Source: Candidatus Acutalibacter stercorigallinarum | GTDB taxonomy: Bacteria; Bacillota; Clostridia; Oscillospirales; Acutalibacteraceae | Direction: 5' to 3' | Assembly: GCA_019112625.1 (NCBI GenBank) | Contig: DXIW01000001.1 | Coordinates: 1 to 33,306, forward strand | Length of the DNA stretch: 33,306 nt | Part shown: positions 28,787 to 32,769 of the stretch, one piece after another | How positions within the stretch are numbered: position 1 is the stretch's first letter | Layout of the letters: each line of letters opens with the position of its first letter | Notes under the pieces: model-generated | The model's input: only the letters and a program-made list of their open reading frames with translations | The model's database searches: none | Told to the model about the DNA's origin: nothing | Translations under genes and position numbers: made by a program

Positions 28787-29062
28787 GATGTCACACCTGC
28801 GGTGGGCAGTCCGCGTATTTTGCCACCCGCGGCGCCCCACCCCGCTCCTCGCGGCCGGGCTTTCCTTTTGCTATGATGTCACACCTGCGGTGGGCAGTCC
28901 GCGTATTTTACCGCCCGCAGCGCCCCGCCTAACTCCTCGCGGCCGGGCCTTGCTTTTGCTATGATACCACACCTGCGGTGGGCAGTCCGCGTATTTTACC
29001 ACCCGCAGCGCCCCGCCCCGTCCCTCGCGGCCGGGCCTCGCTTTTGCTATTATACCATACCT
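28787..29062. repeat. Three 88-bp tandem repeats plus a partial fourth copy
   Basis: Units begin at 28787, 28875 and 28963 with an exact 88-base period; a fourth start is seen at 29051-29062. Each holds cacacctgcggtgggcagt, ccgcgtatttt, a GC-rich centre and ctcgcggccgggc...ttttgctat. Copies differ at only a few positions, mainly in the centre. CTGCGG and CCGCG inside a unit can pair. They lie between the DnaD gene start and the tRNA-region promoter. No protein is convincingly encoded; the open frame across them on the minus strand (28871-29155) is a by-product of the repeats. Confidence 0.92.
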
Positions 29063-29090
29063 GCGCGCCAGAAAAAAGGGAAACTTTCCC

Positions 29091-29119
29091 TTGACTATCC
29101 CAGGTTTTTCGGGTATAAT
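29091..29119 (+). promoter_or_regulatory. Near-consensus sigma-A promoter of the tRNA-repeat transcript
   Basis: TTGACT (29091-29096) and TATAAT (29114-29119) have a 17-base spacer. The next features downstream are the tRNA-derived hairpin repeats and tRNA-Thr, with no open reading frame of note, so this promoter should drive a structured RNA. Confidence 0.88.
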
Positions 29120-29150
29120 AGCTAGGCTGGAAACAGCCCCTTGGGGCCGG

Positions 29151-29446
29151 TGCACACAGTCGTGTAGAGTTGCTCTACCGACTTTCCCCTCAGCCTCTCC
29201 CCAAACGGGAGATAATCGTCAGTTTATGCTTCTTTTGAAATATGCTGGTGTGGCTCAGTCGAGTAGAGTTGCTCTACCGACTTTTCCCCCAGCCTCTCCC
29301 CAAGCGGGAGATAATCGTTAACTCTTAGTCCCTTAGTTAGATATGCTGGTGTGGCTCAGTCGTGTAGAGTTGCTCTACCGACTTTCCCCCCCAGCCTTTC
29401 CCCAAGCGAGAGATAATCGTTAACTCTTAGTCCCTTAGTTAGATAT
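29151..29446 (+). repeat. Three ~100-bp tRNA-derived hairpin repeats
   Basis: The repeated hairpin begins at 29158, 29257 and 29358 (periods 99 and 101; the corresponding tRNA D-arm of the truncated tRNA is 102 further on). Units 2 and 3 start with the exact 5' end of the tRNA-Thr that follows (GCTGGTGTGGCTCAGTCG). In all three units the D-loop/D-stem sequence is followed by its own inverted copy: AGTCG-x-GTAGAG, loop TTG, CTCTACCGACT, an 11-bp stem with a one-base bulge. A second hairpin (CTCTC/GGGAG, CTTTC/GAGAG in unit 3) keeps pairing despite base changes. A third weak stem, TAACT/AGTTA, is found in units 2 and 3. Unit 1 lacks the tRNA 5' end. Confidence 0.85.
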
Positions 29447-29500
29447 GCTGGTGTGGCTCAGTCGGTAGAGCAGCTGATTCGTAATCAGCAGGTCGCTGGT
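29447..29500 (+). pseudogene. Truncated tRNA-Thr(CGT) copy
   Basis: From GCTGGTG (29447) the sequence follows a complete D arm, anticodon arm (GCTGA-TTCGTAA-TCAGC, anticodon CGT), variable loop and the 5' strand of the T stem (GCTGG). It then breaks off at about 29500 into unrelated sequence. No CACCAGC acceptor partner is found nearby. It is almost identical to the intact tRNA downstream up to the variable loop. Confidence 0.85.
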
Positions 29501-29587
29501 TGTCGCTAAGGGTGAACAACCGGGAAGAAACACATTGGGCCTCCAGTTGCAGTCTCAACAGGCAAACAGAATGAAAAAAGTGAATAT

Positions 29588-29663
29588 GCTGGAATAGCTC
29601 AGTCGGTAGAGCAGCTGATTCGTAATCAGCAGGTCGCGTGTTCAAGTCACGTTTCCAGCTCCA
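29588..29663 (+). tRNA. tRNA-Thr (anticodon CGT)
   Basis: A complete cloverleaf is seen. Acceptor GCTGGAA pairs with TTCCAGC, the D arm is GCTC...GAGC, the anticodon stem GCTGA/TCAGC has loop TTCGTAA (anticodon CGT), and the T arm is GCGTG-TTCAAGT-CACGT. The discriminator is T and CCA is encoded. It is the last element of the repeat transcript and is followed by a terminator. Confidence 0.96.
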
Positions 29664-29668
29664 TGAAA

Positions 29669-29703
29669 AAGTCCAGGAATCATGCGGGTTCCCGGGCTTT
29701 TTT
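29669..29703 (+). terminator. Terminator after tRNA-Thr
   Basis: AAGTCCAGGAA (29669-29679) pairs with TTCCCGGGCTT (29689-29699) with one mismatch and one G-T pair, then TTTT. It starts six bases after the tRNA CCA. Confidence 0.85.
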
Positions 29704-30110
29704 GCGTTCCCGGATTATTCTTCTTTCTGCCCGAAAAGCAGGGAAAGAAGGGGACAAAAGGTGTCCCCCCGTGCAGAAAAAAGCTCCGCAAAAGGCCCCT
29801 CCGGGCCCTGTGCGGCCCAGGAAGGCGGGTGGGGACGCCAGCTGGGGCTCGGACCCGCAGACGAGAAGAAAGTCCCAAAAACCAAAATTTCTCGGCTTGT
29901 TCAAAGCGTGTTTCTAATTTCGACATATCTTGCGTGGCACTGGATGATACAATAAAAATGGCGAAAGCCAATACCATAGCATTCCGGTGAGGTTCACACT
30001 CTGTGTGACCTCAGGCATTCATGAGCCCCCCGAATCAACAATCATTCCACTGCGGGTGGATTCCATGAACGTCCACAGTATTTGGCGCTGTGCCGGCAGC
30101 GTGGTGTGGC
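29704..30110. other. Gene-free stretch between the tRNA and the island genes
   Basis: No convincing coding frame is seen; the short open frames lack binding sites and recognisable motifs. There is one good hairpin, GAGGTT/GACCTC extended by CACA/TGTG (29989-30012), and a second possible one with CCAC/GTGG (about 30047-30060). A TACAAT box at 29947-29952 is a possible -10 but no -35 fits. If an element is inserted in the tRNA, its left end should be in this stretch. Confidence 0.5.
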
Positions 30111-30130
30111 CCTTCCGCGATGCGGAAAGG
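30111..30130 (+). promoter_or_regulatory. Hairpin covering the ribosome binding site of the sigma-like gene
   Basis: CCTTCCGC pairs with GCGGAAAGG (one bulged A) around GAT. The right arm contains most of the AAAGGA binding site used by the TTG start at 30138, so the fold could restrict translation. Confidence 0.5.
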
Positions 30131-30137
30131 AAAAAAC

Positions 30138-30521
30138 TTGAACCAAGTAGAAATCTTCTACAACGGTGAGGTAGTATCAGTGCCAAAGGAGGTTGCAGAC
30201 TTCCTGGAGCAGGATCGGAAACGGGCGGCAGCCCAGGACAAACGGGACGAGAGGCATCTTAGTAAAAGTGAGTTTGAAACGGTGCTGTCCTGTGTGACCA
30301 GCTGTGTGTCTGTGGAGGAGACCGTGCTCCGGAGCCTCCAGCTTGAAAATCTGCGGGACGCTGTCAAGGCCCTGCAGGAGGAGGACCAAAAGCTCATCTC
30401 CCTCCGCTACGACAGCGAGCTGACCATGGAGGAGATGGGGAAACTCCTCGGTGTCTCCAAAATGGCAGTCTCAAAGCGACTGAAAAAACTTCACCAAACC
30501 CTGAAAAGCTCTGTCGTGTGA
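30138..30521 (+). CDS. Sigma-70 region 4-like HTH protein of mobile-element type
   Basis: The product is 127 residues from TTG 30138, six bases after AAAGGA; an ATG at 30120 would add six residues but has no binding site. The opening VEIFYNGEVVSVPKEVADFLEQDRKRAAAQDKRDERHLSKSEFETVL matches a small protein family common on clostridial conjugative elements. The C-terminus (about 85-122: DQKLISLRYDSELTMEEMGKLLGVSKMAVSKRLKKLHQTLK) is a sigma region 4-like HTH. No region 2 is present, so it is probably not a complete sigma factor. It lies about 475 bases after tRNA-Thr and before the restriction cluster, consistent with an integrated element. The stop lies inside the terminator stem. Confidence 0.82.
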   Translation: MNQVEIFYNGEVVSVPKEVADFLEQDRKRAAAQDKRDERHLSKSEFETVLSCVTSCVSVEETVLRSLQLENLRDAVKALQEEDQKLISLRYDSELTMEEMGKLLGVSKMAVSKRLKKLHQTLKSSVV

Positions 30522-30532
30522 CAGGGCTTTTC
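30504..30532 (+). terminator. Terminator overlapping the end of the sigma-like gene
   Basis: AAAAGCTCTGTC (30504-30515) pairs with GACAGGGCTTTT (30520-30531) around GTGT, with one G-T pair. The TGA stop (30519-30521) is within the loop/right arm. Confidence 0.85.
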
Positions 30533-30581
30533 GCCCTTTTATGGGGCTGCTAAGTCATTTTCTGAACATGACAGAAAAAGA

Positions 30582-30610
30582 TTGACAAACTCTGCACTGA
30601 ACGTTATACT
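30582..30610 (+). promoter_or_regulatory. Promoter of the restriction-modification operon
   Basis: TTGACA (30582-30587) and TATACT (30605-30610) are 17 bases apart. Related sequences AACATGACAGAAA (30565-30577) and GACATGACGAAAG (30634-30646) flank it on both sides and could be operator half-sites. Confidence 0.85.
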
Positions 30611-30655
30611 ATACCTATAAAGTTATTTTTTAGACATGACGAAAGAGGTTGGAAG

Positions 30656-31243
30656 ATGAAACTTGGAGAAGTCGCATTAGTTCGGAGCGGTTTGGTTTTG
30701 TCCAGAAAGGCGGCAAAAAGTCCTTCGCCATTCCGATATTCCTTGCTTTCATTGCGGGCCATGAGTGGTGAGGGAGAAATACTTGAAGAAGAGTTGGACG
30801 TGTTTCATGCGGCAGAGCTGTTGAAAGAAGAGTATTTGACTCGTCTAGGAGACATTATTGTCCGGCTGAGCGCTCCTTACACAGCTGTGTTGATTGAAAG
30901 CAAATGGGAAAACATTGTGGTGTCCTCCAATTTTGTAATCATTCGAGTGGATGCCCAAAGGGTTGTGCCAGAGTACTTAGCTTGGTATTTGAACAGATCC
31001 TGGATTAAGCGGAAAATCTACAAGGATAGTTCCAGTAATATGTTAGGGGCTGCAAAATCCACATTGTTCAGAAAAATGCCGCTCTCTCTGCCTTCTTTGG
31101 AAGATCAGTATCGAATTGGCCAGGTGTTTTTATTAGCACGGAAAGAAAGCGCTTTGCTATTCTCCTTGGCAGAGCAGAAGAAAAAGTATTATGAGGACAT
31201 TTTAGAGCAGATGAACGATAGAACCAGGAGGAATTTGTCATGA
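30656..31243 (+). CDS. hsdS: Type I restriction specificity subunit, half-size (single TRD)
   Basis: A 195-residue protein with one target-recognition domain. MKLGEVALVRSGLVLSRK is the usual start of such a domain. GDIIVRLSAPYTAVLI, VSSNFVIIRVD, EYLAWYLNR and LPLSLPSLEDQYRIGQVFLLARKE are its typical motifs, ending in the helical spacer (LAEQKKKYYEDILEQM). Complete HsdS proteins carry two such halves in about 400 residues. Half-size subunits are known to dimerise and recognise symmetrical sites. It overlaps hsdM by ATGA, so the order is S then M. Base composition is clearly more AT-rich than in the rest of the window. Confidence 0.85.
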   Translation: MKLGEVALVRSGLVLSRKAAKSPSPFRYSLLSLRAMSGEGEILEEELDVFHAAELLKEEYLTRLGDIIVRLSAPYTAVLIESKWENIVVSSNFVIIRVDAQRVVPEYLAWYLNRSWIKRKIYKDSSSNMLGAAKSTLFRKMPLSLPSLEDQYRIGQVFLLARKESALLFSLAEQKKKYYEDILEQMNDRTRRNLS

Positions 31244-32769
31244 CCACAAAAAGAGATATTGAGCAGGTGCTTTGGAAAGCTTGTGACAGCTTCCGCGGAA
31301 AAATTGACAGCTCTCGCTATAAAGACTATATTTTATCCATGTTGTTTGTAAAATATCTCAGTGATGTGGCTCAGGAGAGGAAAGGGAATTATATCAAACA
31401 ATACGAGGGAGATATGCGCCGTGTGGAGCGAGCTATGAACCGGGAGCGGTTTGCTATGGATGAGGACTCCACGTTCGACTACCTTTATCAGAACCGGAAT
31501 GATCCGGAAATCGGTCAAAAAATCAATGTGGCGCTTAGTCACATCGAGGAGAGAAACAGTAGTAAGCTGCGCAATGTGTTTCGCGCAATCGACTTCAATT
31601 CTCAGGTGGATTTTGGAGAGGTGCGGGAGAAAAATGCCACTCTCCGCAATTTGCTTGAGGACTTTCATGGCCTAAATCTTCGTCCCAGTCAGCTAGATGC
31701 CAATGACATCATTGGTGATGCCTATGAATACATGATCGCCATGTTTGCCTCGGATGCAGGAAAGAAAGGCGGGGAATTCTTCACGCCCAGCCAGGTATCG
31801 GAGCTGATTGCCCGACTGGTGGATCCCCAGGAAAACGACCGCATCTACGACCCTACCTGTGGAAGCGGCGGTCTGCTGCTGAAAGCGTATAAGAAAGTTC
31901 CCAGCGGAAAGGTAGCCATCTACGGTCAAGAGCTTAACGCCCAGACGTGGGCTCTTTGCACCATGAATATGTTTCTCCACGGGGTAGACGATGCCCGTAT
32001 CTGGCAAGGTGATACTTTATCCCACCCCCAAAATCTGGAGGGCGACCAGCTGATGAAATTTCAGAAGGTGGTGGCGAATCCGCCGTTTAGCTTGGACAAG
32101 TGGGACAGCGGTTTCCTTTCGGAAGCGGAGGCCGACAGCAAAGGGAAAAAGAAGATGACTGCCGATCTAGATCCCTATCACCGGTTTGATTTGGGAATCC
32201 CTCCGGCCTCTAAGGGAGATTATGCTTTTGTCCTCCACATGCTTTCCAGTCTGGATGGGGAGAATGGGCGCATGGCCATTGTGCTGCCTCACGGTGTTCT
32301 GTTCCGGGGTGCTAGCGAAGGGAAGATCCGCCGCCAGTTGGTAGAGCTCAATTACCTGGATGCTGTCATTGGATTGCCCGCCAACCTGTTTTACGGAACG
32401 GGCATCCCGGCTTGTATTCTTGTCTTTCAGAAAAATCGCACTCGCCGTGACGTGCTCTTTATCGACGCTTCCGCTGAGGGCAACTACGAAAAGGGGAAAA
32501 ACCAGAATCTCCTTCGGGATTGCGACATCGAAAAGATTGTCCAGGTTTACCGCGCCCGGGAAAATGTGGACAAGTATGCCTACGATGCCAGCTTCGATGA
32601 GATTAAAGAAAACGACTTTAACCTAAATATCCCCCGGTACGTGGACACCTTCGAGGAAGAGGAGCTGGTGGATATCGACCAGGTAAAGCAGAATATCGCT
32701 GACATCGAGACGGAGTTGGCTCAGGTCCAGGCGCAGATGCAAAAGTATTTGGAAGAGTTGGGATTGTGA
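31240..32769 (+). CDS. hsdM: Type I restriction-modification N6-adenine methyltransferase subunit
   Basis: A 509-residue methylase. The N-terminal helical domain (WKACDSFRGKIDSSRYKDYILSMLFVKYLSD) is followed by the SAM-binding motif YDPTCGSGGLLLKA (motif I at 204-216) and the catalytic NPPF (280-283, VVANPPFSLDKWD). GVLFRGASEGKIRRQLVELNYLDAVIGLPANLFYGTGIPACILVF is also typical. The C-terminal coiled-coil (DIDQVKQNIADIETELAQVQAQMQKYLEELGL) should contact the specificity subunit. It is translationally coupled to hsdS. An hsdR gene is not in the window and should lie to the right if the system is complete. Confidence 0.95.
   Translation: MTTKRDIEQVLWKACDSFRGKIDSSRYKDYILSMLFVKYLSDVAQERKGNYIKQYEGDMRRVERAMNRERFAMDEDSTFDYLYQNRNDPEIGQKINVALSHIEERNSSKLRNVFRAIDFNSQVDFGEVREKNATLRNLLEDFHGLNLRPSQLDANDIIGDAYEYMIAMFASDAGKKGGEFFTPSQVSELIARLVDPQENDRIYDPTCGSGGLLLKAYKKVPSGKVAIYGQELNAQTWALCTMNMFLHGVDDARIWQGDTLSHPQNLEGDQLMKFQKVVANPPFSLDKWDSGFLSEAEADSKGKKKMTADLDPYHRFDLGIPPASKGDYAFVLHMLSSLDGENGRMAIVLPHGVLFRGASEGKIRRQLVELNYLDAVIGLPANLFYGTGIPACILVFQKNRTRRDVLFIDASAEGNYEKGKNQNLLRDCDIEKIVQVYRARENVDKYAYDASFDEIKENDFNLNIPRYVDTFEEEELVDIDQVKQNIADIETELAQVQAQMQKYLEELGL

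Follow-up and report, generated by a model that had tools for sequence, protein, structure and literature searches.

Upstream of a tRNA-Thr gene of Candidatus Acutalibacter stercorigallinarum, three repeated units were found in which a copy of the start of the tRNA is followed by a strand complementary to it. They lie on the + strand of a 33,306-nt stretch of DNA, referred to as the window, to which all positions given below refer. Searches in other genomes raised the total to 13 units in seven genomes of three genera, arranged in tandem and located directly before tRNA-Thr genes with the anticodon CGT or TGT. The units are real and recurrent, and they look like a structured cis-acting leader. 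A sequence-only reading of the window had considered the array to be a structured RNA and not random debris, and this is supported by homologous units before tRNA-Thr in six more genomes and by an outer strand that tracks the local tRNA. It is quite possible, and is proposed here tentatively, that the array serves tRNA-Thr as a conserved and structured 5' leader, acting as a folding competitor and tuning maturation of the tRNA.

The array in front of tRNA-Thr in the window

The array is preceded by a sigma-70-type promoter-like site, TTGACT-17-TATAAT, at positions 29091 to 29119, which matches 11 of 12 consensus bases, as expected from the near-consensus promoter described earlier; similar promoter-like sites are located upstream of the units in all six homologous loci. 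The three units, of about 100 bp each, extend from 29145 to 29243 (unit 1), 29244 to 29344 (unit 2), and 29345 to 29446 (unit 3), with spacings of 99 and 101-102 bp. They are followed by a truncated host-type tRNA-Thr(CGT) at 29447-29501, an intact tRNA-Thr(CGT) at 29588-29663, and a terminator-like hairpin with a T run at 29676-29702. Both this order and the downstream terminator had been read correctly from the sequence. On the minus strand, another terminator-like hairpin, AAGGGAAAGTTTCCCTT at 29076-29092, extends into the first bases of the -35 element of the promoter-like site.

The D-arm and its exact inverted copy, forming 11 pairs with a one-base bulge, were confirmed in all three units. 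This foldback core is 26 nt long, AGTCGNGTAGAGTTGCTCTACCGACT, and is located at 29158-29183, 29257-29282, and 29358-29383. It can be written as AGTCG-N-GTAGAG-TTG-CTCTACCGACT and is identical in the three units except for N, an inserted T at 29163, A at 29262, and T at 29363, respectively. The 3' arm or anti-D-arm strand, GCTCTACCGACT (29172-29183, 29271-29282, and 29372-29383), is the exact reverse complement of the 12 residues 14 to 25 of the tRNA, and the 5' arm corresponds to the same stretch of the tRNA with one extra base between G18 and G19. Taken as 16 nt, the 3' arm is 94% complementary to the truncated as well as to the intact tRNA. Units 2 and 3 carry a copy of tRNA-Thr nt 1-18; the copy in unit 1 is degenerate, and the flanks of this unit have diverged. 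The remainder of each unit contains a second hairpin, TCTCCC/GGGAGA at 29196-29212 in unit 1, its counterpart at 29295-29311 in unit 2, and possibly CTTTC/GAGAG at 29396-29412 in unit 3, and then a spacer. The second stem had been over-read: the differences between the units are indeed compatible with G-U pairing, but they are one-sided only, and the stem is missing from the minimum-energy fold of unit 3.

Compared to dinucleotide shuffles, z-scores for folding were -4.0 and -3.6 for units 2 and 3, but only -1.6 for unit 1. A covariance model of the core, R1, assigned 44.3, 42.7, and 44.3 bits to units 1 to 3, the very units from which it was built. Judged from the three units of the window alone, selection on the core is weakly indicated. 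No Rfam family other than tRNA was detected in the array by cmscan, applied to the window at the gathering score and to 29080-29600 at E<=1. The units neither fold nor score as tRNA and no tRNA was called in them, in contrast to 29447-29501, which reached 34.7 bits with the Rfam tRNA model.

The truncated tRNA consists of the acceptor 5' strand GCTGGTG, the D-arm, and the anticodon arm and is devoid of a normal 3' half, whereas the intact one has the acceptor stem GCTGGAA/TTCCAGC. The acceptor strand GCTGGTG is also present in intact tRNAs of G004, G009, G017, and G028. Together with the junction between them (29502-29587), both tRNAs are part of a 256-bp cassette that is 87% identical to a sequence on contig C100 of G013, and the same downstream sequence continues there. 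The simplest reading of these sequences would be that the host tRNA-Thr was interrupted by an island bringing its own tRNA-Thr. The intact tRNA is the sole tRNA-Thr(CGT) among 30 typed of 32 tRNA matches in the assembly, which is 86% complete.

Several other observations were made at this and related loci. The apparent island junction, covering 29443-29663 in the window and also represented by loci L034/L434, is shared with G013, in which two truncated tRNA copies in series precede an intact one. Downstream of the tRNA, at 30090-32769, ORFs resembling by eye a sigma factor and a type I restriction-modification system are possibly cargo of the island. In G027 (contig C12, 21063-53024), tRNA-Thr(TGT) is followed by four 45-nt copies of its nt 32-76 at steps of 6-9 kb, as if islands were stacked, and in G028 (locus L276) a second, truncated tRNA-Thr 5' copy (nt 1-45) is found 13 nt past the intact tRNA-Thr(TGT). 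The leader of tRNA-Thr(TGT) in G024 (locus L282) is different, GC-rich, and contains two copies of CTGCGCTGGCCG; further long leaders occur in G003, G022, and G028. On the other side of the array, three 88-bp tandem repeats, 87-88% alike, are located at 28800-29065 just upstream of a minus-strand gene whose product we take to be DnaD-like. They may be a multiplied promoter: read on the minus strand, the repeat beside 29050 includes TATAAT, and the other two contain TATCAT or CATCAT. A SAM riboswitch (81.7 bits) at 2661-2777, before an ORF at 2828 named by eye as S-adenosylmethionine synthetase-like, is ordinary.

Homologous units and their conserved features

A scan of genome contigs with a pattern for the D-arm foldback detected at least two loci in which a tRNA-like copy, the foldback, and tRNA-Thr coincide. 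Both belong to the genus of the window. Acutalibacter sp. HAN004 (G009, locus L114) has a single unit before tRNA-Thr(CGT), and Bacillota bacterium S21_Bin8 (G014, locus L128) has three units of 56-57 bp followed by tRNA-Thr(TGT) and tRNA-Tyr. Including the genome of the window (G000), with three units before the truncated host-type tRNA, at least three of 29 genomes of the genus carry units; G009 and G014 were recognized by a pattern allowing three mismatches, which misses G000, whose loop is one base longer. Applied to 398 genomes of the family, model R1 identified one unit before tRNA-Thr(TGT) in G394, a member of another genus. A second model, R2, to which G394 had been added, was run over 256 relatives of G394 and returned this genome again plus three more: G1149 with one unit, G1151 with two units 64 bp apart, and G101, representing a third genus (genome 99% complete), with two units 62 bp apart, all at tRNA-Thr(TGT). 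The search for homologous arrays in relatives with covariance models had been set beforehand as a check, and such arrays were thus found. In the six genomes other than that of the window, the units precede an intact tRNA. The copy numbers refer to draft assemblies composed of many contigs.

The distribution is patchy. When R1 was applied to 36 sources, most of them tRNA-Thr loci from the genus, the window, L114, and L128 were the only ones in which it recognized units, and blastn searches of the genome of the window with units 2 and 3 yielded no match beyond this array. Single patterns detected, apart from the genome of the window, G219 among 398 genomes of the family, no other among 394 of the order, and G949 among 391 of the class; the matches in G219 and G949 are without a tRNA copy. 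These are weak negatives, as the family and order patterns cannot match the units of G394, G1149, and G101 and those of G1151 at most partly, and the class pattern cannot match the G101 units. G101 belonged to the 398-genome family sample of the pattern search. Since it was probably also part of the family sample of R1 and was not reported by this model, the frequency of units in the family is probably underestimated. Weak model matches in G432, G075, G236, G414, G360, G068, and G142 were dropped, no tRNA being present within the surrounding 2.9-3.0 kb. The possibility that the units are mobile elements was rejected as well: blastn searches with units 2 and 3 against plasmids and phages gave nothing, and among the IMG/VR pattern matches listed (56 stretches, and at least 120 with another pattern) none had a tRNA-like copy and a nearby tRNA. 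G009 and G014 group together (95/94), apart from G000, in a tree of the neighbouring DnaD-like protein from 10 genomes; despite this sister relationship, their units are located at different tRNA-Thr genes.

Comparison of the 13 units revealed features common to all of them. A base is inserted between G18 and G19 in every unit (10 T, 2 C, 1 A), and GTAG is followed, at a distance of 3-4 nt, by GCTC[T/A]ACC. In 12 units, the copied nt 1-18 are identical to the tRNA of the same genome, the exception being unit 1 of G000, a genome for which the truncated host-type tRNA served as reference. All ten units outside the window contain [C/T]TTCGC after the anti-D-arm, and the outer strand, beginning with GC of this motif, pairs with nt 5-11 of the tRNA. 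A similar spacer (ATTTCATTC, ATTCCATTC or GTTTCACTC) is found immediately before the tRNA in G009, G394, G1149, G1151, and G101. Such letters do not complement the tRNA yet are shared across genera, which speaks for a single ancestral element rather than for several independent origins.

At the level of sequence, the outer complementary strand follows the variants of the local tRNA. It reads GCTAAAC or GCTAGAC in G394, G1149, and G1151, where the tRNA has GTTTAGC, GCTACAC in G101 (tRNA GTGTAGC), and GCCAC in G009 (tRNA GTGGC). All seven positions pair in six of the ten units, one G-U among them; in G014, five of seven outer pairs are formed in two units, and two plus one G-U in the first. When Watson-Crick pairs were counted, the own tRNA variant was strictly best for six of the ten units and tied best for unit 1 of G1151 and the three G014 units. 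If G-U pairs were also counted, unit 1 of G1151 became strictly best and both G101 units became tied. With one unit taken from each of the six genomes (unit 2 for G1151 and G014), own pairing amounts to 39 of 42 Watson-Crick pairs. None of the 720 reassignments exceeds this number, and 12 of them equal it; for four lineages, the maximum is reached by 2 of 24. The reassignment test is modest because three of the six genomes have identical strands.

Base-pair conservation, whose absence would have spoken against the sequence-only reading, was also seen, in that the outer strand follows the tRNA variants. Covariation in the core, a single C-G to U-A change, was not beyond shuffles (53 of 500). 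RNAalifold applied to the 13 units recovered one pair with a two-sided change and not the outer helix, the rows of G009, G014, and G000 being out of register. Only G000, G009, and G014 have preserved the inner AGUYG/CRACU helix, which is not maintained in G394, G1149, G1151, and G101. The view that a unit in its entirety represents tRNA nt 1-25 in inverted form had to be reduced. Beyond the D-arm, shuffles clearly back it only in G009 (5 of 2000; the six remaining units examined gave 387-1272 of 2000); in G394, G1149, G1151, and G101 it is backed by register.

The leader as a putative folding competitor

A unit comprises a copy of about the first 24 nt of the adjacent tRNA-Thr with one extra base between G18 and G19, and then a complementary strand composed of the anti-D-arm, [C/T]TTC, and a stretch complementary to nt 5-11, the last two being altered in the window. 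It probably originated by inverted duplication of the tRNA start. As each unit begins with an 18-nt direct repeat of this start, precise gain or loss of units by recombination would be expected. How the leader might act is more conjectural. With the anti-D-arm on the bulged leader copy, the tRNA would be free to fold and RNase P could cut; with the anti-D-arm on the D-arm of the real tRNA, the tRNA would be sequestered. In this way, the leader would set the share of precursor that matures to tRNA-Thr. It speaks against this mechanism that the separated G18 and G19 in the leader copy should favour the real tRNA. Among the roles listed in the sequence-only reading, such an attenuator-like competitor would fit best.

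Interference of leaders with tRNA folding was calculated as the difference between the free fold and the best fold with an enforced cloverleaf, from which the corresponding gap of the isolated tRNA was subtracted. The G009 precursor comprises 172 nt, including its single unit and the tRNA. In total, 36 precursors were scored, duplicates once; L280, L296, L034, L434, and L439 (no promoter by pattern), L300 (contig end), and L298 and L299 (no such tRNA) were left out. Predicted interference was 12.3 kcal/mol in G009, 6.5 in G101, 6.4 in G1149, 6.3 in G014, 6.1 in G394, and 0.4 in G1151. Thirty tRNA-Thr loci without units ranged from -0.2 to 2.9 kcal/mol, so that five of the six unit loci are above all of them. 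Short leaders of 13-34 nt prevail among these comparison loci (26 of 30); the values for the other four, with leaders of 70-102 nt, were 0.0, 2.0, 0.0, and 0.1. The gap was also reached by shuffled sequences, namely by 14 (G394), 4 (G1149), 50 (G1151), 7 (G101), 1 (G009), and 3 (G014) of 60 shuffles of the whole leader and by 2, 11, 60, 0, 0, and 4 of 60 shuffles of the 3' strand only, in the same order. Long leaders therefore interfere by chance. The near absence of interference in G1151 goes along with pairing of its two units with each other.

Deletion of the inserted base lowered the raw gap by 2.9-4.2 kcal/mol in four of the six loci (G394 from 7.6 to 4.7, G1149 from 7.9 to 5.0, G009 from 12.3 to 8.6, and G014 from 8.8 to 4.6), left it unchanged in G101 (9.0), and hardly affected G1151 (1.9 to 1.5). 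The gap of the window was 5.2 with and 5.3 without the insert, and 8 of 60 shuffled leaders reached 5.2. This result is ambiguous because the island has apparently replaced the tRNA of the window. The device of the window is probably partly disabled, the host tRNA apparently having been split by the island, which brought in another one.

Where interference is predicted, the anti-D-arm strand gives up the leader copy in favour of the tRNA D-arm, and in most of these folds the leader copy is base-paired to the 3' acceptor strand of the tRNA. Minimum-energy folds of the growing transcript, computed every 6 nt for G009 and G014, suggest that the anti-arm shifts from the leader to the tRNA D-arm when 16-23 nt of the tRNA have been made. 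The direct-path barriers out of the native state in these two precursors are, however, 17 and 25 kcal/mol, so that a folded tRNA would not readily be opened. The energy model is devoid of tertiary contacts and modifications, and several tRNA-Thr(TGT) give no cloverleaf even alone. A near-zero probability of the native acceptor stem was dropped as proof of switching, as ordinary leaders also have low values. Taken together, the calculations lend the competitor hypothesis partial support.

Alternative explanations and comparison with known systems

A functionless palindrome is a serious rival and only slightly less probable. Template switching at the tRNA start would have produced the inverted duplication, later switching and gene conversion with the tRNA would have kept the arms complementary, unequal crossing-over between the 18-nt copies would have changed the copy number, and the leader would be trimmed without any role. 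Such an event would leave an exact reverse complement of the D-arm, as observed in the window, and hairpins with compensatory changes can arise by template switching in a single step (PMC8794818). The 5' copy stays identical to the tRNA as it would under conversion, the distribution is patchy with leaders of this tRNA varying freely among species, and shuffled leaders often interfere as strongly as natural ones. Correction by the tRNA should, however, delete the extra base between G18 and G19, which is kept in all units, and [C/T]TTC and the ATTTCATTC-like spacer recur across genera though they are not complementary to the tRNA. Although the units resemble template-switch products, this origin alone does not readily account for the fixed extra base and for the non-complementary letters common to the genera. 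The hairpins described in PMC8794818 are likewise inverted copies of neighbouring sequence with arms kept complementary, and they differ from the units, which copy a tRNA gene start, are tandem, occur in three genera, and have a fixed extra base.

Other roles of the leader appear improbable. As a decoy, leader copies would mimic the acceptor and D-arm of tRNA-Thr and occupy a tRNA-binding enzyme, a tRNA-targeting toxin, or a phage nuclease; exact copies of nt 1-18 of the own tRNA, up to three per leader, would suit this, but they are linked in cis to the gene, can pair into a hairpin, have G18 and G19 separated, and are without anticodon and T arms. Improbable to a similar degree is a processing or protection element, in which the hairpins would only keep the precursor 5' end at a distance and shield it from a 5' exonuclease, or would offer a ribonuclease an entry site, with the tRNA-like sequence being incidental. 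The location between the promoter-like site and the tRNA, the similar spacer just before the tRNA in five genomes, and the stable folds of units 2 and 3 of the window are in line with such an element, but incidental tRNA-like sequence would not track the local tRNA variant, and most comparison loci manage with the very short leaders mentioned above. That the units are scars of island integrations into tRNA-Thr is very unlikely. This tRNA looks like an island target, and a truncated tRNA next to a different intact one fits a junction, in G013 as well, so that 29447-29663 may well be explained by an attachment site. In the genus, however, the att-like fragments that occur repeatedly span nt 32-76, while the units copy nt 1-24 and lie upstream, and in G009, G014, G394, G1149, G1151, and G101 they stand before an intact tRNA. 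Integron attC sites and IS200/REP hairpins were considered as well but not adopted.

The units are neither T-box riboswitches nor tRNA pseudogenes, and most likely they are not attachment-site scars. T-box leaders, which carry a codon-like specifier, are also 5' leader RNAs with a fold set by contact to tRNA. The 13 units, in contrast, precede tRNA-Thr and not a gene for an aminoacyl-tRNA synthetase or for amino acid metabolism, and they hold a copy of the D-arm region and its complement in place of a specifier; with the T-box covariance model, cmscan found no match in the array of the window. Transcription attenuators use mutually exclusive hairpins and share with the units one strand with two alternative partners. 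In the units, the second partner is the tRNA itself, and no terminator-like site was detected on the + strand between units and tRNA in the window. The 3'ETS-leuZ and rtT of E. coli tyrT are non-tRNA parts of tRNA precursors as well, some of them repeated and tRNA-derived, but they are located downstream of or between tRNAs and are not known to contain a foldback of the tRNA start. To our knowledge, no bacterial tRNA gene has a dedicated leader imitating and complementing its own tRNA. One step of binding by bacterial RNase P is inhibited when a pre-tRNA leader base-pairs with the 3' RCCA (PMC9433436). Leader-tRNA pairing alters processing in that system too; there, pairing with RCCA extends the acceptor stem, whereas the units constitute a dedicated, repeated module complementary to nt 5-25. 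In the open-licence literature searched, including tRNA passages of RNA-discovery papers, no earlier description of such units was found.

It is doubtful, but conceivable, that the units represent an undescribed class of cis-acting RNA, a marked tRNA copy combined with an anti-tRNA strand, in which strand exchange would decide on folding and processing of tRNA-Thr and possibly sense tRNA-Thr supply, chaperones, or temperature. Control of maturation by the leader would mean that tRNA supply is set by the folding of the precursor, which could easily be tested in vitro. If the units are only template-switch palindromes, they would offer a clear example from nature of how complementarity between a hairpin and a tRNA can persist across genera.
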